64,000 nucleotides of DNA. It comes from a bacterium (GTDB taxonomy: Bacteria > Desulfobacterota > Binatia > HRBIN30 > CADEER01). Position 1 is the first letter of the stretch, and the number at the start of each line of letters is the position of its first letter. Shown piece by piece: positions 2,477-59,046 of the stretch. Below the pieces are notes generated by a model that saw only the letters and a program-made list of their open reading frames with translations, had not been told where the DNA came from and ran no database searches. The DNA lies in assembly GCA_019637795.1 (NCBI GenBank), contig JAHBUY010000001.1, positions 765,001 through 829,000 on the forward strand, in the 5' to 3' direction. The translations under genes and the position numbers were made by a program.

Positions 2477-5400
2477 GCCGGGTCGAGCGAATCGCTGTCG
2501 AGGCGGGCAGCGAGCGCGGTCATGCCGAGCGCCGCCGCGGTGGCGCGCGCCTCGGCCGCGAGGGCGGCGGCGCGGGCGCCGGCGCCGGCGCGACCCCGAC
2601 GGCGCAGGAGGGCGGCGTAGTCCGCCTGCACGTGCGCCAGCGCCGGCGGCGAGTCGACCCGCGCGTTGAGCTGCAGCGCGGCCTCGAACCAGCGGGCCGC
2701 ATCGTCGTCGTCGCCCATGGTCGCCGCCAGCAGACCGAGGTTGCGGGCGGCGGCGCCGAGCGGCGCGGTGCCGGCGGCGACGACGAAGTGGTGGGCGCTC
2801 GGCAGGTGCAGGGCGTAGAGCCGGCGCGCCGCCGCCGCGTCGCCGACCCGGGCGCAGAGGCGACTGAGGTAGGTGAGCTGGACGTTGAACGTCAGATCGC
2901 GCGGCAGGGCGCGGAAGTCGTTCGCCGCCAGGGCCGCGAGCTCGCGCGCCGCCTCGTCGAGCCGGCCGGTCTCGGCGTACAGATACGCCAGCGCGACCGG
3001 CCATCCGGCATTGTGCGGGTACTGGGCGCGCATCATCTCGAGCACCGGCTCGATCTCCGCCAGCCGGCCCTGTTCCTGGCGCAGCGAGTACATCTGGGCC
3101 CCGAACACCTGCCTGGCGCCGTCGATCTGGGCGCGCTCGCCGAGCCCCGGCGTCTCGAACGCCATCTGCTCCACCTCGGCGAAGCGGCCCCGCAGCAGCG
3201 CCAGCATGGTGCGCCGCAGATGGGTGACGTATTCGAACACCGGCTGTCGCAGGTCCGCCGCCTCCCGCGCATGGGTGTCGAGCTCGCGTTCGAAGGCCTC
3301 GACGTCGCCGAGCTCCATGAGGTCGACCATCCGCCAGCCGCGGCCGCTGAGCGCCAGCCCGCGCTCGTCCGATGCCTCGGCGAGCTCGATCAGCTCGCTG
3401 GAGAGGGCGAGCCGTTCGGCGGCGTTGTCGGGTCCCCACAGCGCCCAGCGGGCGTGGCGCAGCACGTGCGCCAGCGACACCAGGTCGGCGGTGCGGCGGG
3501 CGAGCGCGATCGCGTCGCGCGCCAGGGCTTGGCGGCGGCCTGGATCGCCGGGCGCGAAGGTGATCGCTTCGGCGAGGCGCGCCATGACCCGCGCGCGCAG
3601 CGGGTCGGGGCGATCGCCGAGCGCCGCGACGCTGGCTTCGAGCAGCGCCACCAGGGGCTCGTCGACGAACCCGATCTGCATGCCCGAGTGCTTGCCGCCG
3701 GCGGCCAGCGCGGCGCGCGCCAGCAGCGGCGCCGCGCCGAGGCGGCGGGCGGTTTCCGCGATCTCGCGCGCCATGCGCTCCGCGGTCGCCGACTCGCCGG
3801 CGTTCCACAGCGCATCGGCCTGGGCGAGCTGGATCTCGCCGCGCTGCACCTCGTCGACCGGTGGCCGGGCGGCGAGCGCGGCGAGGGCGCGGCCGTACAG
3901 GTCGGCGCTCTCCTGGTAGGCGAGCCGGCGACCCGCCGCCGCGGCCGCGCGCAGGGCGAAGGGCAGGGCGCGCGCCGGATCGCCGGCGGCCTCGTAATGG
4001 TGCGCCAGGTCGGCGGCCCGCGCGTCGGCATCGCCGGCGGCCTCGACCTCGATGGCGCGCGCGACGGCGGCGTGCAACTGGCGGCGGCGGGCGCGCGTCA
4101 GGCCGGTGTAGAGCGTCTCGCGGAACAGGGCGTGGGTGAACCGATAGCGCGCCGCGGCGTCGGGGACTTCGGCGAGCAGCGCGAGCGCCACCGCTTCGTC
4201 GAGCACGCCCACCAGCGCGTCGGCGTCCAATCGGGTCACGGCGCCGAGCAGATCGGCGTCGAGCTCGCGGCCGATGACCGCCGCGGCCTGGAGCGCCTGG
4301 CTGGCGCGCGCGTCGAGCCGCGAGAGCCGCTGGCGGATCACCTCGCGGACGCCGAGCGGCACGGTCAGCTCGGGATCGGCCAGGGCGGCCGCCCACGGTC
4401 GATCGACGCACTGGCCCTGGAGATGGCGCACCGTCTCGGTGATGAAGAACGGGTTGCCCTCGGTCCGCTGATGGATGGCCGCGACCGCCGCCGGCGGCAC
4501 CGCGCTGCCGGTCATCGAGACGATCAGCTTGCGCGAATCGTCGGGCGCCAGACCGTCGAGCGCCAGCCGCTCGAGGCGCTGCTGGCGATGGAGGTCGGCG
4601 AGCGCGGCGGCCAGGGGATGCGCGTCGCCGACCTCGGTCTCGCGGTAGGAGAGCAACACCACCAGCGATGCGGCGTCGGCATGGGCGACGACGTGCAACA
4701 GCAGGCGCAGGGTCGAGCGATCCGCCCAGTGCAGGTCCTCCAGCACGACCAGCAAGGGCCCCGGCTGCGCGGCGGCGGCGAGCAACCGGGAGACGGCGTT
4801 GAACATCTGGTAGCGCGTCGTCTCGGTGTCGGTGTCGCTCGGACCCACGACCTCGGGCAACCGTTCCGCCAGCTCGGGCAGCAGGCGTCCCAGCTCGACG
4901 GCGTCGCTGGCGAGCTGGGCGCGCAGGGTGTCGGGCGCGGTGTCGCGCACGTAGCGGCCCAACGCCTCGACGAACGGTTGGTACGGGATCAGCGGCTCGG
5001 CGCTGGCGCCGCCCAGCAGCACGCTGCCGCCGTCGTCGTAGACGACGCGCGCGAACTCGCGCGCCAGGCGCGTCTTGCCGATGCCGGCCTCGCCGCTGAT
5101 CGCGATCACGCGCGGCCCGGCGACCCGCTGCGCCATCGCCCGGTCGAGCGCCGCCATCGCGACGTGCCGGCCGACGAACGCCGTCGTCTCCTCGACGGCG
5201 AACCAGGCCGGCAGCGCCAGCCGCGGCGCGCCGGCCGCGCGGCTGGCCCTCGACGCCCAACGCGCGAGGGCGGCGCGCACCGCCGTCGCGGCGGGGCGGG
5301 CCGACGGGTCGATGGCGAGCAGCGACGACACCAGCTCGCTCAACGCCGGCGGCACGTCCGGCCGCCGCTCCAGCACGGGTGGCGGGGTCTGACGCAGCTT

Positions 5401-6228
5401 GCGGCCGAGCAGGTCGTTCAGCGTCTCCGCCTCGAACGGCGGGGCGCCGACCAGCAGCTCGTACAGCAGGCTGCCGAGCCCGTAGAGATCGCAGCGCGCG
5501 TCCAGCACCCCGCCGCTGATCTGTTCGGGAGCCAGGTAGGCCGGGGTGCCGATCAGCTCACCGTCGGACCGCGGCATCAGCTCGGCGACGCGCGCCAGGC
5601 CGAAGTCGCCGAGGAAGACGTCGCCCTTGCCGTCGAGCAGCACGTTCGACGGCTTGACGTCGAGGTGGACGACGCCGCGCTGGTGCGCCGCCACCAGCGC
5701 CTCGCACAACTGCAGGCCGATCTGCACCACCCGCTCGACCGCGAGCGGCGCCGGGCCGCTGCGCGCCAGCTCCGAGGCGAGGTCGCCCCCGGCCATGAAC
5801 TCGTTGATGATGAACGCCGCCGTCGGCGTGTCGATGACGTCGTAGACGGTGACCACGTGGCGGGTGCCGCCCACCCGGGCCATGATCCGGGCCTCGCGCA
5901 GGAGATCGTGGGTCAGCTCACCGAGCGCCGCAGTGTCGAACGCGGCCACCGCGACGTCGCGGTCGAGCACGGCGTCGCGGGCGAGGTAGACGCTCTTCTG
6001 GGCGCCGCGTCCGAGCAGGAGCAACGGCTGGAAGCGCGCCGGCAGGCTCTCGAGCAACGGCGGCGGCGAGGCGAGGAGACCGCCGGACGGCGTCGGGTCG
6101 CCCACGTGCGTCCGACAGCAGCGGCACGGCCCGCCCCCCTGACTGTTCGTGAACCCGCACGACGTGCAGGCGCGAAAGTCGATCGGCAGGCGCGCCGCCA
6201 GCGGCGCGCTGGCGGCGGTCTCTACCAT
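2473..6228 (-). CDS. Ser/Thr protein kinase fused to AAA ATPase and helical repeats (PknK/MalT-like), beta3 Lys missing
   Basis: 1251 residues. An N-terminal ribbon CTSCG..CRCC (21-38) is followed by a kinase domain (about 68-320) with Gly loop GRGAQKSVY, HLDVKPSN (Asp190, Lys192, Asn195), DFG 208-210 and an APE-like APEQ. Where kinases have VAVK, this one reads DVAVAAF, so Ala95 takes the place of the ATP-anchoring Lys. A STAND/AAA module follows: Walker A GEAGIGKT (379-386) and Walker B LLVVLEDLHWAD near 500. The remaining ~600 residues are Ala/Leu-rich helices, probably TPR-like. Such proteins usually couple signal sensing to transcription or to a partner enzyme, but no DNA-binding or cyclase domain is seen. 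It heads a three-gene operon (ATGA overlap with the GMC gene). An AGGG-N4-CCCT palindrome lies about 100 bp upstream. Confidence 0.85.
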   Translation of the reverse strand: MVETAASAPLAARLPIDFRACTSCGFTNSQGGGPCRCCRTHVGDPTPSGGLLASPPPLLESLPARFQPLLLLGRGAQKSVYLARDAVLDRDVAVAAFDTAALGELTHDLLREARIMARVGGTRHVVTVYDVIDTPTAAFIINEFMAGGDLASELARSGPAPLAVERVVQIGLQLCEALVAAHQRGVVHLDVKPSNVLLDGKGDVFLGDFGLARVAELMPRSDGELIGTPAYLAPEQISGGVLDARCDLYGLGSLLYELLVGAPPFEAETLNDLLGRKLRQTPPPVLERRPDVPPALSELVSSLLAIDPSARPAATAVRAALARWASRASRAAGAPRLALPAWFAVEETTAFVGRHVAMAALDRAMAQRVAGPRVIAISGEAGIGKTRLAREFARVVYDDGGSVLLGGASAEPLIPYQPFVEALGRYVRDTAPDTLRAQLASDAVELGRLLPELAERLPEVVGPSDTDTETTRYQMFNAVSRLLAAAAQPGPLLVVLEDLHWADRSTLRLLLHVVAHADAASLVVLLSYRETEVGDAHPLAAALADLHRQQRLERLALDGLAPDDSRKLIVSMTGSAVPPAAVAAIHQRTEGNPFFITETVRHLQGQCVDRPWAAALADPELTVPLGVREVIRQRLSRLDARASQALQAAAVIGRELDADLLGAVTRLDADALVGVLDEAVALALLAEVPDAAARYRFTHALFRETLYTGLTRARRRQLHAAVARAIEVEAAGDADARAADLAHHYEAAGDPARALPFALRAAAAAGRRLAYQESADLYGRALAALAARPPVDEVQRGEIQLAQADALWNAGESATAERMAREIAETARRLGAAPLLARAALAAGGKHSGMQIGFVDEPLVALLEASVAALGDRPDPLRARVMARLAEAITFAPGDPGRRQALARDAIALARRTADLVSLAHVLRHARWALWGPDNAAERLALSSELIELAEASDERGLALSGRGWRMVDLMELGDVEAFERELDTHAREAADLRQPVFEYVTHLRRTMLALLRGRFAEVEQMAFETPGLGERAQIDGARQVFGAQMYSLRQEQGRLAEIEPVLEMMRAQYPHNAGWPVALAYLYAETGRLDEAARELAALAANDFRALPRDLTFNVQLTYLSRLCARVGDAAAARRLYALHLPSAHHFVVAAGTAPLGAAARNLGLLAATMGDDDDAARWFEAALQLNARVDSPPALAHVQADYAALLRRRGRAGAGARAAALAAEARATAAALGMTALAARLDSDSLDPA

Positions 6229-45516: not shown

Positions 45517-47037
45517 TCAGGCGGCCGCCACCTGGCGGCCGCCGCTCGAATCCGGGGCCGCCTGGGCACCGGCGCGGCGGCGGACGGCGCGGTAGGCGGC
45601 GCGGTCGAAGTGGCGGGTGCGCAGCCAGTAGACGAAGGTCGACCACGGCCAGTTGTTGGTGATGTGGCCCTCGGCGTCCTTGTACCAACTGTCGCCGGCC
45701 GCCGCCCAGGCGGAATCCCGCAGCGCCGCCTGCACCTCGGCGTTGTAGGCGTCCATCATCACCGGCTGCAGATCGAGGTACGCGAGGTCGTCGCGCTCCA
45801 GCGTCTCGAGCGCGCCCATGATGTACGCGATCTGGCACTCGAGCATGAAGATGATCGAATTGTGGCCGAGATTGGTGTTGGGACCGTACAGCATGAAGAA
45901 GTTCGGGTAGCCGGCGACGGTGATGCCGTAGTAGGCGCGCGCTCCGTGCGCCCAGTCCTCCGCCAGCACCCGACCGCCGAGCCCCTCGATGCGCAACGAG
46001 GCGAGGAACGGGTTGGTCTTGAAGCCGGTGGCGAGGATCACGACGTCGAGCGGGTGATGACGGCCGTCGGCGGTGATGACGCCGTCTTCGACGACGCGCT
46101 CGATCGCCGCGGTCACCACCGCGACATCGTCGCGGTTGAGCGTCGGGTAGAAGTCGTCAGCGATGAGAATGCGCTTGCCGCCCACCGGGTAATCGGGCGT
46201 CAGCACGCGACGCAGCGCCGGGTCGGCCACCGTCTCGTCGATGTGTTTGCGGCACTGGTCGGTCATCGCCCGACTGGCCCAGCCGCGGCGGCGCATCACC
46301 GGGTAGAGGAAGAGCTCGCCGCGCACCCACAGCCAGAAGCGGTACAGCGCGGTGACGAACGGCAGGTGCGCGAACACCCAGTGCTCCCACGGACGGTAGG
46401 CGCGATCGCCGCGCCGGATCATCCAGTTGGCGCTGCGCTGGAAGATGGTGAGCTGCCGCGCCTGGGGCGCGATCTGCGGAATGAGCTGGATGGCGCTGGC
46501 GGCGTTGCCGATGACGCCGATGCGCCGGCCGGCGAGGTCGACCGCGTGGTTCCAGCGCGCCGAGTGGAAGCACGGACCGCGGAAGCTCTCCAGCCCGGGG
46601 ATCGCCGGCAGGTGCGGGACGTGGAGCTGGCCGACGCCGCTCACCAGCACCTCGGCCACCAGCTCCTCGCCGTCGGCGGTGCGTACCGTCCACGTCCCCG
46701 CCGCCTCGTCGAAGCGGGCGCCGGTGACGCGGACGCCGAAGCGGATGTGGCGCAGCAGGTCGTTGCGCCGCGCGCAGTCCTCCATGTACTGCCGGATCTC
46801 CGGCTGCGGCGACCACTTCCGCGTCCAGTCGGTCTTCTGCTCGAACGAGAAGCTGTAGAGGATCGACGGCACGTCGCAGGCGGCGCCGGGATACGCGTTG
46901 TCGCGCCAGGTGCCGCCGAGCGCGTCCGACTGCTCGAGGATCGTGAAGCGGTCGATGCCCGCCCGCTTCAGCCGGATCGCCAGCCCGAGCCCGCCGAAGC
47001 CGCTGCCGATGATGAGGATTCGTCGTTGCATGCGCAT
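45517..47037 (-). CDS. Flavin monooxygenase, Baeyer-Villiger-like
   Basis: 506 residues. RRILIIGSGFGGLGLAIRLKR (FAD site), GGTWRDNAYPGAACD, and a second GxGxxG-type site GRRIGVIGNAASAIQL for NADPH are seen. The fingerprint FRGPCFHSARWN resembles FxGxxxHxxxW(P/D), with Asn at the last place. It inserts oxygen into ketones or related substrates using NADPH and O2; substrate unknown. ATG 47031 is an alternative start. A hairpin at its 3' end may stop transcription from the neighbouring gene. Confidence 0.9.
   Translation of the reverse strand: MRMQRRILIIGSGFGGLGLAIRLKRAGIDRFTILEQSDALGGTWRDNAYPGAACDVPSILYSFSFEQKTDWTRKWSPQPEIRQYMEDCARRNDLLRHIRFGVRVTGARFDEAAGTWTVRTADGEELVAEVLVSGVGQLHVPHLPAIPGLESFRGPCFHSARWNHAVDLAGRRIGVIGNAASAIQLIPQIAPQARQLTIFQRSANWMIRRGDRAYRPWEHWVFAHLPFVTALYRFWLWVRGELFLYPVMRRRGWASRAMTDQCRKHIDETVADPALRRVLTPDYPVGGKRILIADDFYPTLNRDDVAVVTAAIERVVEDGVITADGRHHPLDVVILATGFKTNPFLASLRIEGLGGRVLAEDWAHGARAYYGITVAGYPNFFMLYGPNTNLGHNSIIFMLECQIAYIMGALETLERDDLAYLDLQPVMMDAYNAEVQAALRDSAWAAAGDSWYKDAEGHITNNWPWSTFVYWLRTRHFDRAAYRAVRRRAGAQAAPDSSGGRQVAAA
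45521..45542. terminator. GC-rich hairpin between convergent genes
   Basis: GCGGCCGCC and GGCGGCCGC pair across ACCT. It overlaps the last codons of the monooxygenase gene and lies 17 bp past the DUF2231-like stop. Confidence 0.4.
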
Positions 47038-47112: not shown

Positions 47113-47379
47113 CTAGCCGCCCGCCGCCGCTTTCAGAAACGTCACCGTGTCGCCATCCACCAACGGCGTGCTCATGCCCCGCTGATGGTTGGACAGCACG
47201 CCGTTGACGGCGACCGCGGCGACGCGGGTCAGCTTCGCGAACGCCTCGCCCTGCTCGCCGAACCGCTCGCGCGTCAGGCGGACGACGTCGGCGACGGTGC
47301 GGGCGTCGGCGACCTCGAAGCGGCGGACGCCGCCCAGCGCCTTCGCCATGTCGTAGGTGAGCTCGACCGTGATGGCCAT
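47113..47379 (-). CDS. MoaD/ThiS-like ubiquitin-fold sulfur carrier
   Basis: 88 residues, beta-grasp pattern: ITVELTYDMAKALGG, TVADVVRLTRERF, VAVNGVLSN, PLVDGDTVTFLKAAAGG. It ends in Gly-Gly, as needed for thiocarboxylate formation. It follows the aldehyde ferredoxin oxidoreductase gene (TGATG overlap), where such a carrier is common and may serve its tungsto/molybdopterin cofactor. Confidence 0.9.
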   Translation of the reverse strand: MAITVELTYDMAKALGGVRRFEVADARTVADVVRLTRERFGEQGEAFAKLTRVAAVAVNGVLSNHQRGMSTPLVDGDTVTFLKAAAGG

Positions 47380-49262
47380 CAGATCCGCACCTGCAGGCGC
47401 TCGAGCGTGCGCCGCGTCGGCACGCCCTGCGCGTCCCAGCCGCGCAGCGTGTAGTAGCGCGGCAGCAGTTGCGGCAGGGGATGGCCGCTGGTCATGCCCT
47501 TGAACGTCGGCTCGTGCAGCATGCGCGGCGGCAGCGTGTCGTCCGCCGCCGTCAGCCCCTCGCGCAGGTTGTACATGCGCTCGAGGTTGAAGATGCGGCC
47601 GCCGATCTCCTGCAGGTGGCCACCGGAGACGGTCGTGCCGGTGATGTAGGTCAGCCACTTCTCGAACCACATCATCGGCTTGCCCTTGAGCTGCATGGCG
47701 GTGCGCATGAGCGGACCGCTGTTCTCGAACAGCGTCGTCACCAGCTTGTAGGTGAACGAATTGGGATCGAGGTTGTGCACCTGCTTGGGGATCATCCCGT
47801 AGGTGGTGAAGATGCACAGCACCATCGAGTTGATGGCGCAGGCGAGGTTCTGCTGCAGGATCGGGATGTCGGCCTTCAGCTTCAGGTTCATCGGGTTGAT
47901 GGTCAGCGGGCCGACCGACTCGAGATACATGCTGGCGCCCTGCACGTGGCAGCCGCCGCGGTTGGTGGTGGCGTACTCGACGCCCTGCGCGTAGGAGCCG
48001 CGCGGATCATAGGCGGAGAGCTCGAGCCCCTTCACGTGCATGGCGAACTCGTGGCCGCCGTAGCGCTCGGCCAGGCGCTTCACCCCGTCGGCGAGGTGGT
48101 CGCCGAGCGCGCGGCGGTGGCCGATGTCCCTGATCATGTCGCTGACGCCGCTGACGTCGCCGAAGCGCAGGCCGGCGTTCAGCATGCCGCGCTCCTGCAG
48201 CTCCATGGCGAAGCTCAGGACGGCGCCGAGGCTGATGGTGTCCATGCCGAGGTCGTCGGCGAGGTAGTTCCACTCCGCGATGCGCTTGAGATCGAGCACC
48301 TCGAGGTTGGTGCCGAGCAGCGCCACCGTCTCGTATTCCGGCCCCTTGACGCGGCCGACGCCCTCGAGCTCGACGTCGCGCCCGCAGGTCACCGGGCAGT
48401 GGATGCAGCTCGACTTGACGCCGGTGAGCTCGTGGTCCTCCATCCACTCGCCCGAGATCTGCATGGCCTCGGGATGGTGGCCGTACTTGAAGTTGTGGGT
48501 GGGGATGATGTTGCGGGCGTTGGTGGTGTTGACGATGCCGGCGGTGCCGTAGCGCTTGAGCTTCTCGCCCAGCACCGGGTGGTCGCGGAACATCTCGCGT
48601 ACCCATTTGGTGTAGGCCTTGAACGCGTCCTCGTCGTCCATCTCCAGCTTGCGCGGGCCGTTGACCGAGATCGCCTTCAGCCGCTTCGATCCCATCACGG
48701 CGCCGACGCCGGTGCGGCCGGCGATGCGCTCGTTGGAGACGATGCCGGCGTAGAGCACCTGGTGCTCGCCGGCCGGCCCGATGACGGCGTGGTACTTCTT
48801 CTTGTCGAGCGCCGCCTGGGTGGCGTAGGTGCCCTTGCCCCACAGCTCGCCGGCGGGGAGGAAGCGGACGCGGTCGTCGGCGCCGTCGATCTCGATCCGC
48901 AGCGGCGCGCTCGCCTGGTTGCGCACGATCACCACGTCGATGCCGGCGCGCTTCAGACCGTACGCGAACGAGCCGCCGCAGGCGGCGTTGCCGATGCCGC
49001 CGGTGAGCGGGCTCTTGCACACCACCGCGAAGCGGTTCGACTGCGGCGCCACCGAGCCGTTGAGCGGTCCGGTGGCGAAGATGAGCGGATTGTCGGGGCC
49101 CAGCGGGTCGATCCCGGGCCGCGTCATGTCGTAGAGCAGCCGCGTCCCGTACCCCTTGCCGCCGATGTACAGCCGCGCCGTGTCCTCGTCGAGCGGCTGG
49201 TAGGTCGCCGTCTGTGTCGCCAGGTCCACGTCCAGGACGCGCCCCGCGTAGCCTTTGATCAT
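47379..49262 (-). CDS. aor: Aldehyde:ferredoxin oxidoreductase (tungsten/molybdenum enzyme)
   Basis: 627 residues. The N-terminus MIKGYAGRVLDVDLATQ is typical, followed by YIGGKGYGTRLLYD, PLNGSVAPQSNRFAVVCKSPLTGGIGNAACGGSFAYGLKRAGID (pterin-binding region; family signature) and the [4Fe-4S] ligands CIHCPVTC. A fourth Cys is likely in MVLCIF near 500. It oxidises aldehydes to acids with ferredoxin. It is cytoplasmic, followed by a MoaD-like gene. Other branches of the family act on benzoyl-CoA or sugar aldehydes, so substrate is open. Confidence 0.93.
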   Translation of the reverse strand: MIKGYAGRVLDVDLATQTATYQPLDEDTARLYIGGKGYGTRLLYDMTRPGIDPLGPDNPLIFATGPLNGSVAPQSNRFAVVCKSPLTGGIGNAACGGSFAYGLKRAGIDVVIVRNQASAPLRIEIDGADDRVRFLPAGELWGKGTYATQAALDKKKYHAVIGPAGEHQVLYAGIVSNERIAGRTGVGAVMGSKRLKAISVNGPRKLEMDDEDAFKAYTKWVREMFRDHPVLGEKLKRYGTAGIVNTTNARNIIPTHNFKYGHHPEAMQISGEWMEDHELTGVKSSCIHCPVTCGRDVELEGVGRVKGPEYETVALLGTNLEVLDLKRIAEWNYLADDLGMDTISLGAVLSFAMELQERGMLNAGLRFGDVSGVSDMIRDIGHRRALGDHLADGVKRLAERYGGHEFAMHVKGLELSAYDPRGSYAQGVEYATTNRGGCHVQGASMYLESVGPLTINPMNLKLKADIPILQQNLACAINSMVLCIFTTYGMIPKQVHNLDPNSFTYKLVTTLFENSGPLMRTAMQLKGKPMMWFEKWLTYITGTTVSGGHLQEIGGRIFNLERMYNLREGLTAADDTLPPRMLHEPTFKGMTSGHPLPQLLPRYYTLRGWDAQGVPTRRTLERLQVRI

Positions 49263-49419
49263 GCGGTTGGTTCTAAACCGCGCCGGTGGGGGCGGCAATG
49301 CGGGACACCGATGAACACCGATGGGCGCGAAGGATCGCCGGCCGTCGTTCCTTCGCTGCCATCGGCGGCCGTCGGTGGCCCTCGGCGTCCATCTGCTGAT
49401 TCTCGCCCGGGACACCGGG

Positions 49420-49521: not shown

Positions 49522-50235
49522 ATGCGTCGAATCGCCTGTGAAACCTGTACCGCCCGGTCCGGCAGCCTGGTGTGCGATGTCCCGGCCGACGTCCTCGGCG
49601 ACCTGCGGGCCGCCTGCACGGCGACGCTGTACCGGCCGCGCCAGGTCATCTTCGGCGAGGGGACGCCGGCCGCGGCCCTGTTCCTGGTCTGCCATGGGGC
49701 GGTGAAGCTGTACCACTCGGACCGCTTCGGCCGCGACCACATTCTCGAGGTCGCCGGGCCCGGCGCGCTGGTGGGCGAGCTCTCGCTCGACGACGGCGAC
49801 GTCATGTCGGTCTCGGCCGAGGCCCTGACCGAGGCGCAGGTGTCCTCGTTCTCCCGCGAGCGCCTGACCGCCTTCATCCAGCGCCATCCGGAGACCGGAG
49901 TGCGCTTCCTCGCGGCGCTCAGCCGCGAGCTGTCGCTGGCGCGGCGCAAGGCGCGCGACCTGGCGCTGAAGGGCGCCGAGAGCCGCCTCGCCGGACTGCT
50001 GCTGCAACTGGCGCGCGCCGCCGGCGACATCGGCCCCGGCCAGTCGCTCGGCCTGCGCTACTCGCGGCGCGAGCTGGCGGAGATGATCGGCGTCTCGACC
50101 GAGACCGCCATCCGCCTGCTCGCGGCGCTGAAGCGCAAGGGCGCGATCCGCAGCAACGGACGCGACGTGGTGTTGGCCGACATCGACCGCCTGACCCGCA
50201 TCGCGCAGCACGACGAGATGCGGGATGTCGCCTGA
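49522..50235 (+). CDS. Crp/Fnr-family regulator with N-terminal cysteines
   Basis: 237 residues from ATG 49522, with GGAGGGG upstream. Cys6-x2-Cys9-x8-Cys18 lie at the N-terminus, where Fnr binds its cluster. Then a cyclic-nucleotide-binding-like beta-barrel (LYRPRQVIFGEGTPAAALFLVCHGAVKLY, GALVGELSL) and a helix-turn-helix (YSRRELAEMIGVSTETAIRLLAALKRKGAI). The ARxS-type cAMP signature is absent, so a redox, metal or NO signal is more likely. It overlaps nnrS by 11 bp, and a perfect operator lies just upstream. Confidence 0.92.
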   Translation: MRRIACETCTARSGSLVCDVPADVLGDLRAACTATLYRPRQVIFGEGTPAAALFLVCHGAVKLYHSDRFGRDHILEVAGPGALVGELSLDDGDVMSVSAEALTEAQVSSFSRERLTAFIQRHPETGVRFLAALSRELSLARRKARDLALKGAESRLAGLLLQLARAAGDIGPGQSLGLRYSRRELAEMIGVSTETAIRLLAALKRKGAIRSNGRDVVLADIDRLTRIAQHDEMRDVA

Positions 50236-51499
50236 CCGCCCGGCGGCGGCCGGCGCGCGGCGCTTCCTGGTCACCAGCCTGCTGTTCGCGCTCACCTTCG
50301 GCACCGCCCTCGGCGCCCTGACGCTGGCGGCGTTGACCGCCCCGGTCGGTCCACTGGTCCGGCTGCCGATCTACGCCGCCCGCGTCGCCCACGCGCACGC
50401 CCAGGTGTTCGGCTTCGCGGCGCTGTTCATCATGGGCGTCGCCTACCACGCGCTGCCGCGCATGGTGGCGGCGCCGCTGGCGCGGCCGCGGCTGGTCGAC
50501 GCCTCGTACTGGCTGCAGAGCGGTGGCGTGCTGGCGATCGCGCTCGCCGCCTTCGTCGATGCGCCGCTCGGCCCGGCGATCCACGTCGCCGGCGCCGCCG
50601 CTCTCCTGCTCGCCGCGATCGCCTTCTCCATCGTGGTGGCGCGGACGTTGGGATCGGGCACGCCGACCCGCGAGCGCATCGAACCCTGGCTGCGCGCCGG
50701 CTGCGTCTGGCTGATCGTCGCCTCGCTGCTCGCCCTCGCCGTCGCCTGCGGCCATCCCGCCCTGCTGCCGGCGCTCTGGGACGCCGCCCTCTACGGCTTC
50801 GCCGCCTCGTGGATCTTCGGCTTCGGCCTGCGCATGCTGCCCGGCTTCCTGCAGCTCCGCGCCGCCGCCGGCGGCCGCCGCGCCGTGGCGCTCGCCTACC
50901 AGGCGGCGGTGCTGGCCTGGGTGGGGGTCGTCGCGCTGGCGCCGATCACGGCGCTGCCGCTGGCGCGCGCGCTCGCCGGCGTGCTGCTCTCGCTCGTCGT
51001 GCTCGTCTACGTCGGCCGGCTCGACATCGCCAGCGCCGCGACCCGATCGAGCGCCCTCGCCGGCCGCTTCTTCGAGGCCGCCTACGGCTGGCTCCTGGTG
51101 TGGGTGGTGTGCGTGCCGGCGGCGAGCGCGCTGGCGGCGGCGGTCGACAGCGAGGTGCCGCCGGCGGTCGCCGACTTCGGTCGCCACGCCTTCACCGTCG
51201 GCTTCCTCACCCAGATGATCGTCGGCGTGGCGCTGCGCATCCTGCCGGCGCTGAGCGGCGCCGCGCTGTGGAGCGGCGCCTGGCGCGACGCGACATTCTG
51301 GCTGCTCAACGCGGCGGTGGCGCTGCGCGCTCTGCAGGTGGTGGTGGCGCTCGGCGGCCCGCCGGCGCTGTGGCCGGCCACCGCGGTGAGCGGCATGCTC
51401 GGGGTCGCGGCGCTGGTCGCGTTCACGGTCAACCTGGCAATGACCCTGCGCGGCGCGGGCGCGCCTCCCGTTGCCGCGCTTCATCAGCTCCGACCCTGA
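50225..51499 (+). CDS. nnrS: NnrS family membrane protein
   Basis: 424 residues, about 12 helices. It has YAARVAHAHAQVFGFAALFIMGVAYHALPRM, FGLRMLPGFLQL and GFLTQMIVGVALRILPALSG, in keeping with NnrS, a haem and copper protein tied to NO tolerance. His residues in the first segment are the likely haem ligands. Translational coupling to the Crp/Fnr gene supports a joint role in NO or nitrosative stress. It ends just before a second operator-like site. Confidence 0.8.
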   Translation: MSPDRPAAAGARRFLVTSLLFALTFGTALGALTLAALTAPVGPLVRLPIYAARVAHAHAQVFGFAALFIMGVAYHALPRMVAAPLARPRLVDASYWLQSGGVLAIALAAFVDAPLGPAIHVAGAAALLLAAIAFSIVVARTLGSGTPTRERIEPWLRAGCVWLIVASLLALAVACGHPALLPALWDAALYGFAASWIFGFGLRMLPGFLQLRAAAGGRRAVALAYQAAVLAWVGVVALAPITALPLARALAGVLLSLVVLVYVGRLDIASAATRSSALAGRFFEAAYGWLLVWVVCVPAASALAAAVDSEVPPAVADFGRHAFTVGFLTQMIVGVALRILPALSGAALWSGAWRDATFWLLNAAVALRALQVVVALGGPPALWPATAVSGMLGVAALVAFTVNLAMTLRGAGAPPVAALHQLRP

Positions 51500-51509
51500 C
51501 CAACGTCAT
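51496..51509. promoter_or_regulatory. Second Crp/Fnr-like half-palindrome, upstream of the diiron operon
   Basis: CTGACC-AA-CGTCAT keeps TGA-N6-TCA; its first TGA is the nnrS stop. The left half equals that of the 49472 site; the right half differs at two positions. It lies 62 bp before the first diiron gene. Confidence 0.4.
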
Positions 51510-51571: not shown

Positions 51572-52453
51572 ATGTCTGATTTCCTGTCCGCGTACTCGAT
51601 CCAGAACTGGCTGGAGTCCTGCCCGCAGGGCTACCTGGAGAACACCGAGTACGGCCACCAACCGGGCGAGAAGGAGCCCGAGCTGCTGATCACCAACCCG
51701 CTGCTGCACGAGGAGACGCTGCGCGCCACGGTGCAGCTCGTGGTCGGCGAGCGCTGCGCGTTGTCGGCGTCGTCGGGCCTGATCAACGCCGCGCCGGACG
51801 AGGCGTCGAAGCGCTTCCTGGCGACGCAGACGCTCGACGAGGCGCGCCACGTCGAGATCTTCACCCAGCGGCTCTACGACCTCGGCGTGAAGAAGGAGGA
51901 TCTCGAGTCGACGATCCGCCACTTCGCCAATCCCAACCTGGTCAAGTTCGCCGAGGTGCTGCTCGACAAGGTGGACCGCAAGGACTTCATCGCCGGCGTC
52001 GTCGGTCAGAACATCGTCCTCGAGGGCATGGCGTTCAGCGTCTTCGAGATGCTGCACGCGCTCAACCAGGACATGAACCCGAAGTTCGCGCACACCCTGA
52101 GCGGCACCATCGCCGACGAGCGGCGGCACGTCGGCTTCGGCGAGAACCGCATCGGCTCGCTGATCAAGGCCCACCCGGAGAAGAAGGCCGAGGTCGAGCG
52201 CATGCAGAAGGAGATGTCCTACTGGATGCTCGCCACCTTCGCCGACGCCTTCCGCAACAACACGGCGGCGGCGGAATTCAAGCGCATCGAGCAGGAGGCG
52301 GGGCTCGAGCACCACGCGCGCTTCCAGGGCGTCGACCTCGCGGGCATGGAGCCGGAGGCGATGGAGGTGGTGCTCGCCGACACGGTGCTGAAGGAGTTCA
52401 AGGTCCGCCTCGGCCGCATCGGCATCGACTACCAGACGCCCGTCCGGCCGTGA
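51572..52453 (+). CDS. Diiron ferritin-like protein, paralog 1 of a two-gene pair
   Basis: 293 residues from ATG 51572 (GGAGG 6 nt upstream; a GTG directly before is possible). It has a four-helix diiron pattern with six ligands: Glu60 (VVGERCAL), Glu90 and His93 (DEARH), Glu151 (NIVLEGMAF), Glu183 and His186 (DERRHVGFG). The pattern resembles R2-like or AurF-like oxygenases. The second Fe pair is preceded by the same spacing in the next gene. Substrate unknown. It begins an operon with a paralog and a four-Cys protein, directly after nnrS. Confidence 0.85.
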   Translation: MSDFLSAYSIQNWLESCPQGYLENTEYGHQPGEKEPELLITNPLLHEETLRATVQLVVGERCALSASSGLINAAPDEASKRFLATQTLDEARHVEIFTQRLYDLGVKKEDLESTIRHFANPNLVKFAEVLLDKVDRKDFIAGVVGQNIVLEGMAFSVFEMLHALNQDMNPKFAHTLSGTIADERRHVGFGENRIGSLIKAHPEKKAEVERMQKEMSYWMLATFADAFRNNTAAAEFKRIEQEAGLEHHARFQGVDLAGMEPEAMEVVLADTVLKEFKVRLGRIGIDYQTPVRP

Positions 52454-53247
52454 GCGGCGCGGTCCGCGAGCGCTCGGCGGTGATGGACATCCACGACCTC
52501 GAACCGGAGGAGTTCCTCGAGGAGGTGCACTCCTTCGAGTTCTGGTTCCAGGCCGTGGAGGGCTACCTGTCCGGCCTCACCTGGGGCCATCGGCCGGACA
52601 CCGCCGAGGCGCCGCTCGGCGAGCTCGAGCGCGACCGCCTGATCACCGTGCTGTGCAACTACTGCATCGGCGAGACGGCCGCGCTCGAGGGCGCCAGCGG
52701 CCTGATCGCCTTCGCGCCCAACCGGCTGGCGAAGGTGTTCCTCTCCACCCAGGTGGCCGACGAGGGCCGCCATCTCGAGGTGCTGCTGCGCCGGCTGCGC
52801 GACCTCGGCGTCGCCGAGCCCGAGGTGGAGATGGAGAAGCGCGCCAGCCGCGGCATCCTGCTCTTCCGCCAGCGCCTGCTCGAGCTGGTCGCCAGCCGCG
52901 ACTGGGAGGCGGCGATCTTCGCCCAGAACGTCATCCTCGAGGCGCTCGAGTTCGCCGTCTTCCACAGCCACGCGCAGACCGCCGACCCGATCACCCGCGA
53001 GGTCCTGCAGGGCATCATCAAGGACGAGCGCCGCCACATCGGCTTCGGCGAGAACGAGCTCGGGCGCCGCCTGGCGGTCGCGCCGCACATCCGCGCCCGC
53101 CTCGGACGGGTGAAGAGCGAGCTCGACCACCTCGTGCTCGACGCGCTCGAGGAGACCATGCTCGCCATCGCCACGCCGCAGGACGAGCGCGGCCGGGTCG
53201 GCCGCGCCTACCTGGAATCGGTCGAACGCCTGGGGTTCGCGCGATGA
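52450..53247 (+). CDS. Diiron ferritin-like protein, paralog 2
   Basis: 265 residues from GTG 52450, overlapping the previous stop (GTGA); an ATG at 52483 is possible. It is homologous to paralog 1: ETAALEGASGLIAFAPNRLAK, DEGRHLEVLLRRLRDLGV, and KDERRHIGFGENELG. Ligands Glu75, Glu105, His108, Glu164, Glu193 and His196 are all kept, so both partners could carry iron. A heterodimer is plausible. The N-terminus is acidic. Confidence 0.85.
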   Translation: MSGAVRERSAVMDIHDLEPEEFLEEVHSFEFWFQAVEGYLSGLTWGHRPDTAEAPLGELERDRLITVLCNYCIGETAALEGASGLIAFAPNRLAKVFLSTQVADEGRHLEVLLRRLRDLGVAEPEVEMEKRASRGILLFRQRLLELVASRDWEAAIFAQNVILEALEFAVFHSHAQTADPITREVLQGIIKDERRHIGFGENELGRRLAVAPHIRARLGRVKSELDHLVLDALEETMLAIATPQDERGRVGRAYLESVERLGFAR

Positions 53248-53546
53248 GCGATCCGCTGCAGCAGTCGGAGGAGGCGCTCGAGGCCGAGCGGCCGCGCCAG
53301 CGCTACCTCCTCGAGGACACCGGCTTCGACGAGGTGCCGAAGAAGTACCGCAAGTTCTACCGCAAGTGGAAAGGCGCCGGCGACGAGCTGGCGCCGAACG
53401 AGGTCATCTGCCCGGTGTGCAAGGTGGTGATCCGCTCCAGCCGCGAGCTGCGCCCCGGCGACCGCGTCTACTGCATGCCCTGCATGTCGCGCCTGGTCGT
53501 CGTCCGCACCGAGCAGGGCACCCTCGAGGCGCACGTCGCCTACTGA
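53244..53546 (+). CDS. Four-cysteine (zinc-ribbon or rubredoxin-like) small protein
   Basis: 100 residues; the ATG overlaps the previous stop (ATGA). CPVC (56-59) and CMPC (77-80) could bind Zn or Fe. The N-terminus is charged (MSDPLQQSEEALEAERPRQR), and KKYRKFYRKWKG is basic. It lacks the CxxCG-CPxCG of classic rubredoxin. It is the third gene of the diiron operon, so an electron donor or assembly partner is possible. Confidence 0.75.
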   Translation: MSDPLQQSEEALEAERPRQRYLLEDTGFDEVPKKYRKFYRKWKGAGDELAPNEVICPVCKVVIRSSRELRPGDRVYCMPCMSRLVVVRTEQGTLEAHVAY

Positions 53547-58632: not shown

Positions 58633-59046
58633 TCAGACGCGCTGGGCGAGCAGGTCGCGGATCTCCGCCAGCAGCTTCTCCTGCGCCGGCGGTTCGGCGG
58701 GCGCCGGCGGCGGGGCTTCCCGCTTGAGCCGGTTCACCTGCTTCACCAGCAGGAAGATGGCGAAGGCGACGATGACGAAGTCGATGATGCTGTTGACGAA
58801 GGTGCCGTAGTTGAGGGTCACGGCGCCCGCCGCCCGGGCCTGCGCCAGGGTGGCGTAGTCGCCGCCGCTCAGGCTGATGAACCAGTTGGTGAAGTCCACC
58901 TTGCCCATCAGCATGCTCAACGGCGGCATCATGATGTCGGCGACGAACGAGCTGACGATCTTGCCGAACGCGGCGCCGATGATGATGCCGATCGCCATGT
59001 CGAGCACGTTGCCCTTCATCGCGAAGTCCCGGAATTCCTTCAGCAT
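58633..59046 (-). CDS. mscL: Large-conductance mechanosensitive channel
   Basis: 137 residues. [20 protein letters not shown] is the MscL N-terminus, then [23 protein letters not shown] (TM1) and [20 protein letters not shown] (TM2). The C-terminal helix [12 protein letters not shown] follows. It releases solutes on osmotic downshock. Downstream is WS/DGAT, upstream the DUF748 gene. Confidence 0.97.

Follow-up and report, generated by a model that had tools for sequence, protein, structure and literature searches.

The subject of this analysis is a set of three genes, here called A, B and C, in a 64,000-nucleotide stretch of a bacterial genome assigned to the class Binatia (Desulfobacterota; HRBIN30; CADEER01; assembly GCA_019637795.1, contig JAHBUY010000001.1, positions 765,001 to 829,000 of the forward strand), referred to below as the window. 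A and B encode paralogous ferritin-like diiron-type proteins and C a small protein with four cysteines (Table 1). An earlier note made from the letters of this DNA had located all three correctly, and B does carry equivalents of all six carboxylate and histidine ligands of A, as it had said. Its statement that all three genes overlap holds for B and C, which share 4 bases (ATGA, 53244-53247). Whether A and B overlap depends on the start codon chosen for B: the GTG start produces a 4-base GTGA overlap and a protein of 265 residues, the length of several close homologues, and the ATG start leaves a gap of 29 bases and a protein of 254 residues. The gene directly preceding A is NnrS-like, again as noted earlier (PF05940, 33.1 bits against a Pfam cut-off of 28).

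Table 1. Genes, motifs and upstream features at the A-B-C locus (window coordinates)
Feature	Position	Strand	Description
Gene A	51572..52453	+	293 aa, ferritin-like diiron-type protein; ligands E60, E90xxH93, E151, E183xxH186
Gene B	52483..53247	+	254 aa from ATG 52483, or 265 aa from GTG 52450; paralogue of A
Gene C	53244..53546	+	100 aa, four-Cys protein; conserved N-terminal part of about 50 aa, LysW-like zinc-ribbon model, C-terminal Tyr
CPVC motif, C56-C59 of C	53409..53420	+	both Cys kept in 74/74 homologues
CMPC motif, C77-C80 of C	53472..53483	+	C77 kept in 74/74, C80 in 73/74 homologues
Tyr100, last residue of C	53541..53543	+	conserved terminal Tyr
NnrS-like membrane protein	50225..51499	+	PF05940; linked neighbour, outside the module
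CRP/FNR regulator	49522..50235	+	four Cys (CxxC-x8-C and LVC); by Pfam and identity to the regulators of loci L108 and L119
FNR-like palindrome TGAC-CAAC-GTCA	51497..51508	.	64 bases before A, overlaps the NnrS stop codon; suggestive only

Scanning one genome per species (84,980 species) for C returned 63 loci, whose record titles include Deltaproteobacteria/Binatia, Acidimicrobiales, Microthrixaceae, Myxococcota, Gammaproteobacteria, Hyphomonadaceae and Caulobacterales. Together with genomes of the class and the window this gave 74 non-redundant loci (numbered L; genomes are numbered G). A, B and C follow one another in this order on one strand at 57 of them, A is found at 66 and B likewise at 66, and six of the 17 non-canonical loci end at a contig edge near the module (L042, L045, L057, L059, L062 and L069). 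Among 148 genomes of the class, searched with thresholds of E 1e-50 or better for A and B and E 1e-3 for C, we found C in 28, A in 25, B in 23 and all three in 22, and wherever A or B occurred C was present too (Fisher p 2e-25 for A and 2e-22 for B, uncorrected for kinship). This co-occurrence search had been named by the earlier note, and its outcome bears out the picture of paired diiron-type proteins with a Cys4 partner of their own. The impression that the trio matches no named system also stood, in that none of the titles and abstract openings listed by the literature searches, with most subscription journals outside their coverage, described it. In a sample of 395 genomes from the phylum C gave three strong matches and seven weak ones, mostly covering the zinc-ribbon part, and A was rare in three other sampled orders (7/299, 1/283 and 5/238 genomes in the orders of L066, L054 and L040). 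The module seems to be patchy and portable.

Departures from the full set showed that the two paralogues can be separated. At five loci A was present and B absent (L115, L127, L128, L050 and L053), four held B without an adjacent A (L126, L020, L024 and L060), B was readable only in part at L027, and L064 held neither. A and C occurred without B in three genomes of 98-99% completeness (G466, G467 and G474), where a search for B recovered only A and more distant proteins, and B and C without A in one genome (G468, 94% complete). L060 had appeared to hold B only, but its A (70% identity) lies elsewhere in the genome, and the genomes of L020 and L024 contain A-level matches to B elsewhere, which are candidates only; therefore G468 alone supports a system of B and C. 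These genomes rule out an obligatory A/B heterodimer, and the alpha/beta heterodimeric oxygenase suggested in the earlier note is unsupported in that form. C on its own is possible, given two genomes with C but neither paralogue: G469 (85% complete), where neither is encoded in the 5.4 kb preceding C (L064), and G479 (88% complete), where the match is limited to residues 41-100. The lone C of L064 (5454-5693, +) also lacks the terminal tyrosine.

The ligand pattern Glu, Glu-x2-His, Glu, Glu-x2-His and the four-helix diiron bundle fold place A and B in the ferritin-like diiron oxidase/oxygenase superfamily, and both proteins are predicted to bind iron. The counts that follow leave out A copies of less than 45% identity, B copies of less than 42%, and copies with less than 85% coverage. 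Among nearly whole copies from non-redundant loci each ligand was kept in 64/64 B proteins and in 61/61 A proteins, except for E151 (60/61, one Asp); the single Asp belongs to the most divergent A copy (53%; L029:5352-6227, +). Mean identity across loci was 69% for A (n=61), 59% for B (n=64) and 67% for C (n=74), with A and B about 35% identical to each other on average, and the distances of A, B and C were only moderately correlated (0.57, 0.45 and 0.38). The glutamate at A E95 is invariant in both paralogues. Other positions, close to the ligands in sequence, are fixed differently: L56 of A (60/61) is Tyr in 64/64 B proteins, A154 (60/61) is Glu in 64/64, so that B has one more Glu, three residues past its ligand in helix 3, and G145 is mostly Ala in B. 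Since these differences are fixed and either paralogue can be lost while C remains, the two proteins probably differ in function. A tree built quickly from 52 rows, three of which had long branches, separated A (25 rows) from B (24 rows) with support values of 95 and 97, and A-only and B-only copies were nested within their respective clades. The duplication therefore likely predates the spread of the module, and systems of A with C or B with C would derive from later loss.

The module differs from each of the characterized relatives compared. Where source records name its proteins at all, the entries read hypothetical protein, ferritin-like domain-containing protein, rubrerythrin, 1,2-phenylacetyl-CoA epoxidase catalytic subunit or long-chain fatty aldehyde decarbonylase. 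Structure predictions were made for A and C individually, and the model of A shares its fold over nearly its whole length with the azoxy synthase VlmB (8wvr, 6d9f) and further ferritin-like diiron oxidases/oxygenases, the six ligands aligning, although identity is only 22% and VlmB-like rows stand apart from A and B in the tree. VlmB oxidizes a hydrazine to an azoxy group, according to PMC11705231. VlmB azoxy synthases are clustered with a flavin reductase that serves hydroxylamine formation: the two Streptomyces VlmB-like genes examined (L164 and L165) have flavin reductase genes adjacent, whereas the window neighbours scanned with Pfam include none. A search of the plasmid collection containing these two genes gave no match to C. 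Aldehyde deformylating oxygenase (ADO) shares the diiron fold, and B passes the Pfam cut-off of PF11266 (30.4 bits), which A does not; against the equivalog TIGR04059 (cut-off 222.65 bits), however, A and B reached only 16.4 and 29.3 bits. Similarly, the best score against R2-like ligand-binding oxidases (R2lox) was 30.2 bits, with NCBIfam cut-offs of 194 bits or more. AurF/CmlI/Dob3-type N-oxygenases have a seventh His four residues before the Glu of the last motif (H225/E229 in Dob3), as described in PMC12154687; at this position, 179, the 61 A proteins have Thr (60) or Ala (1) and the 64 B proteins Ile or Val.

An indication of when the trio is used comes from the DNA preceding A. At the 13 alpha/gamma loci where the start of A lies on the contig we looked for the FNR-type box TTGAY-N4-RTCAA. 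An exact copy lay in the 300 bases before A at eight of them (P 1e-11 on a background of 1.8% per 300 bases), and allowing one mismatch raised this number to 11; at L063 and L067 exact boxes lie slightly farther out, at about -301. With a limit of 350 bases, boxes matching at least nine of ten positions preceded A at 13/13 alpha/gamma loci versus 1/48 others, both the grouping and this limit having been set after a first look at the boxes. Three of the 13 loci (L061, L063 and L067) are titled only Proteobacteria and were counted as alpha/gamma: the genome of L061 belongs to the order of L066, the A of L063 groups with alpha rows, and L067 was placed by its likeness to L063. Two loci from the order of L066 that were added later also carry boxes (two exact in L158, one with a single mismatch in L159), so that the upstream signal of an FNR-type regulon is present in the alpha/gamma copies at 13/13 plus 2/2 later loci. 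L108 has a TGAC-N4-GTCA-like site similar to that of the window, TGACCTACGTCA, 200 bases upstream of A, and L119 has none; the window and L108 sites were picked after inspection and are suggestive only. From these signals the trio likely serves cells at low oxygen or in the presence of nitric oxide (NO).

The neighbouring genes were called with our own GC-position script, whose output includes antisense artefacts; selected neighbours were checked with Pfam and others were judged by sequence. In the window a gene for a four-Cys FNR sits two genes before A; in L108 and L119 such a gene is transcribed divergently from A. The window protein is 55-56% identical to these two A-adjacent regulators, all three being mutually 51-56% identical. 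L107 has NnrS before A, L120 and L121 are flanked by another CRP and another NnrS, and both families were matched beside A in G526. Within 5 kb of the module NnrS was found in 5/28 C-bearing genomes of the class versus 0.07 expected, and HTH_Crp_2 in at least 6/28 versus 0.19 expected; these represent three and four genera, because G524-G526 are one genus. Since the window NnrS does not match those of L107, L120 and L121, two distinct kinds of NnrS are involved in the linkage. Genomes with NnrS anywhere were also commoner among C-bearing members of the class (22/28 versus 30/120 others; p 2e-7, uncorrected for kinship). Linkage in only five of 28 genomes excludes NnrS as a member of the module.

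Other copies are accompanied by a RIC/ScdA gene after C (L070, Pfam; we take RIC to be dnrN) and by hemerythrin genes near the module (L119 and L046, Pfam), and an NnrS divergent from A in L120 (11051-12757, +) has a C-terminal hemerythrin-like stretch scoring 24.7 bits, just below the cut-off. The hemerythrin gene of L119 (10738-11163, +) overlaps the end of C. In L066 a ribonucleotide reductase gene (3765-6218, -), class II-type by its TSCPD domain (Pfam), is divergent from A, and the promoter region between them contains two exact FNR-type boxes; similar genes were seen by sequence in L068 and L158. YwiC is a neighbour at L118 and L130, which are one genus, and protoglobin kinases are neighbours at L024 and L026. 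PMC1274295 names NnrS and dnrN as core members of NO-responsive regulons. Further copies, above all those of Acidimicrobiia, have unrelated neighbours, and across the 74 loci no recurring pathway neighbour was found: the top clusters after A, B and C comprise 11, 9, 8 and 6 loci and are mostly spurious or antisense-ORF-like, with a P450-like cluster at 6/74 loci. Elsewhere in the window, an aldehyde ferredoxin oxidoreductase (PF01314/PF02730) followed by a small protein that we judged by sequence to be MoaD/ThiS-like (47113-49265, -) diverges from the FNR gene; a flavin monooxygenase of the FMO/Baeyer-Villiger type (PF00743) occupies 45592-47031 (-), and the large-conductance mechanosensitive channel MscL, also assigned by sequence judgement, 58633-59046 (-).

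Rubrerythrin/rubredoxin and flavodiiron NO reductase systems offer a precedent for a diiron protein with a Cys4 partner, and C could pass electrons to the diiron sites from an Fe(Cys)4 centre, the rubredoxin-like role proposed in the earlier note. Its two CxxC motifs are kept in nearly all 74 homologues, 17 residues apart in 73 of them, and the module has no other donor. The structure model of C, however, matches LysW zinc-ribbon proteins over residues 51-100, no rubredoxin is among its listed fold matches, and no rubredoxin family matched the sequence at E 0.1 or better, which makes a donor of this kind unlikely. Nor does C resemble the amino-group carrier LysW beyond the modelled zinc-ribbon fold: the C-terminal Glu tail of LysW carries substrate, whereas C has a conserved N-terminal part and a Tyr end, and terminates in Glu at 0/74 loci. 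Tyrosine is the last residue at 64/74 loci and occupies that column at 68/74; it also ends 119 of the best 120 of 1787 C protein homologues, but only 15/733 other open reading frames at the same loci. The column holds Tyr at 65/66 loci with B, the remaining one having Phe, versus 2/5 with A but no B (Fisher p 7e-4), a weak test because the five B-less loci represent about four lineages. As a lead and not as proof, this points to the C-terminal tail of C serving B. C might accordingly be a substrate or cofactor-bearing subunit whose tyrosine is oxidized by its diiron partner, mainly B; we regard this as improbable, as the residue may simply pack against B and A-only systems survive without it.

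Our preferred reading, to which we assign a probability of only about 0.42, is that the trio forms a diiron oxidoreductase made at low oxygen or with NO that removes NO or residual O2. Low oxygen or NO would induce A, B and C; A and B would bind iron at their six-ligand sites, which in the reduced state would take up NO or O2 and reduce it, some cellular donor supplying the electrons; and C, modelled as a LysW-like zinc ribbon, would dock on both proteins, steadying the paralogues or gating electron or substrate access, its terminal tyrosine serving mainly B. We prefer NO (or O2) removal on the grounds that the module is free-standing and patchily distributed and has NO and low-oxygen genes as neighbours. 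The scavenger of NO or O2 raised in the earlier note thus gains weight from the FNR-type boxes and from the FNR/CRP, NnrS, hemerythrin and RIC neighbours, while the substrate consumed is only inferred. Several observations weigh against this reading. Besides the post hoc choice of grouping and distance, 47/48 non-alpha/gamma loci lack a box of nine or ten positions, the window itself reaching 8/10; three loci titled Proteobacteria or Enhydrobacter (L027, L029 and L035) and the later three Acidimicrobiia loci have none; and kinship makes some of the loci non-independent, one 14-mer being shared by L058, L061 and L159. No NnrS lies near the module in 23/28 genomes of the class, some on short contigs, and no reductase gene is linked to it. 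FNR-type control leaves the consumed substrate unspecified, and we know of no NO reductase with the diiron ferritin-like fold.

In the main competing reading, A and B would be oxidases or oxygenases that depend on O2 and act, like VlmB and ADO, on some organic or nitrogenous metabolite; C would be a structural or substrate-presenting subunit, and FNR-type control would mean only that cells need this reaction when oxygen is low. VlmB, ADO and R2lox, the closest relatives with solved structures, oxidize substrates using O2, and the characterized fold-search relatives at large either do so or are ribonucleotide-reductase subunits. C is followed in the window by an alpha/beta hydrolase gene, relatives of which lie on the opposite strand in L110, L112 and L114. 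Given this chemistry and these neighbours, an oxygenase is nearly as likely as NO or O2 removal, which we still favour: no substrate-pathway gene recurs widely near the module, and the boxes and NO-related neighbours suggest stress defence. At the far end, as a long shot, the trio could represent a new two-paralogue diiron class in which C, as a carrier-like protein of LysW fold, offers its conserved terminal tyrosine to the B site, to be oxidized or to act as a radical relay, within an FNR-controlled NO- or O2-consuming enzyme; such a tyrosine-relay enzyme would be unlike flavodiiron proteins, globins or RIC.

A, B and C thus make up a widespread and highly conserved three-gene module that apparently has no assigned function, in carriers known here mostly from metagenome-assembled genomes. 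The promoter boxes offer a direct way into the question of when the cells use it. If the proposed role in NO or O2 removal is true, the module would constitute a new diiron route for dealing with nitrosative or low-oxygen stress.
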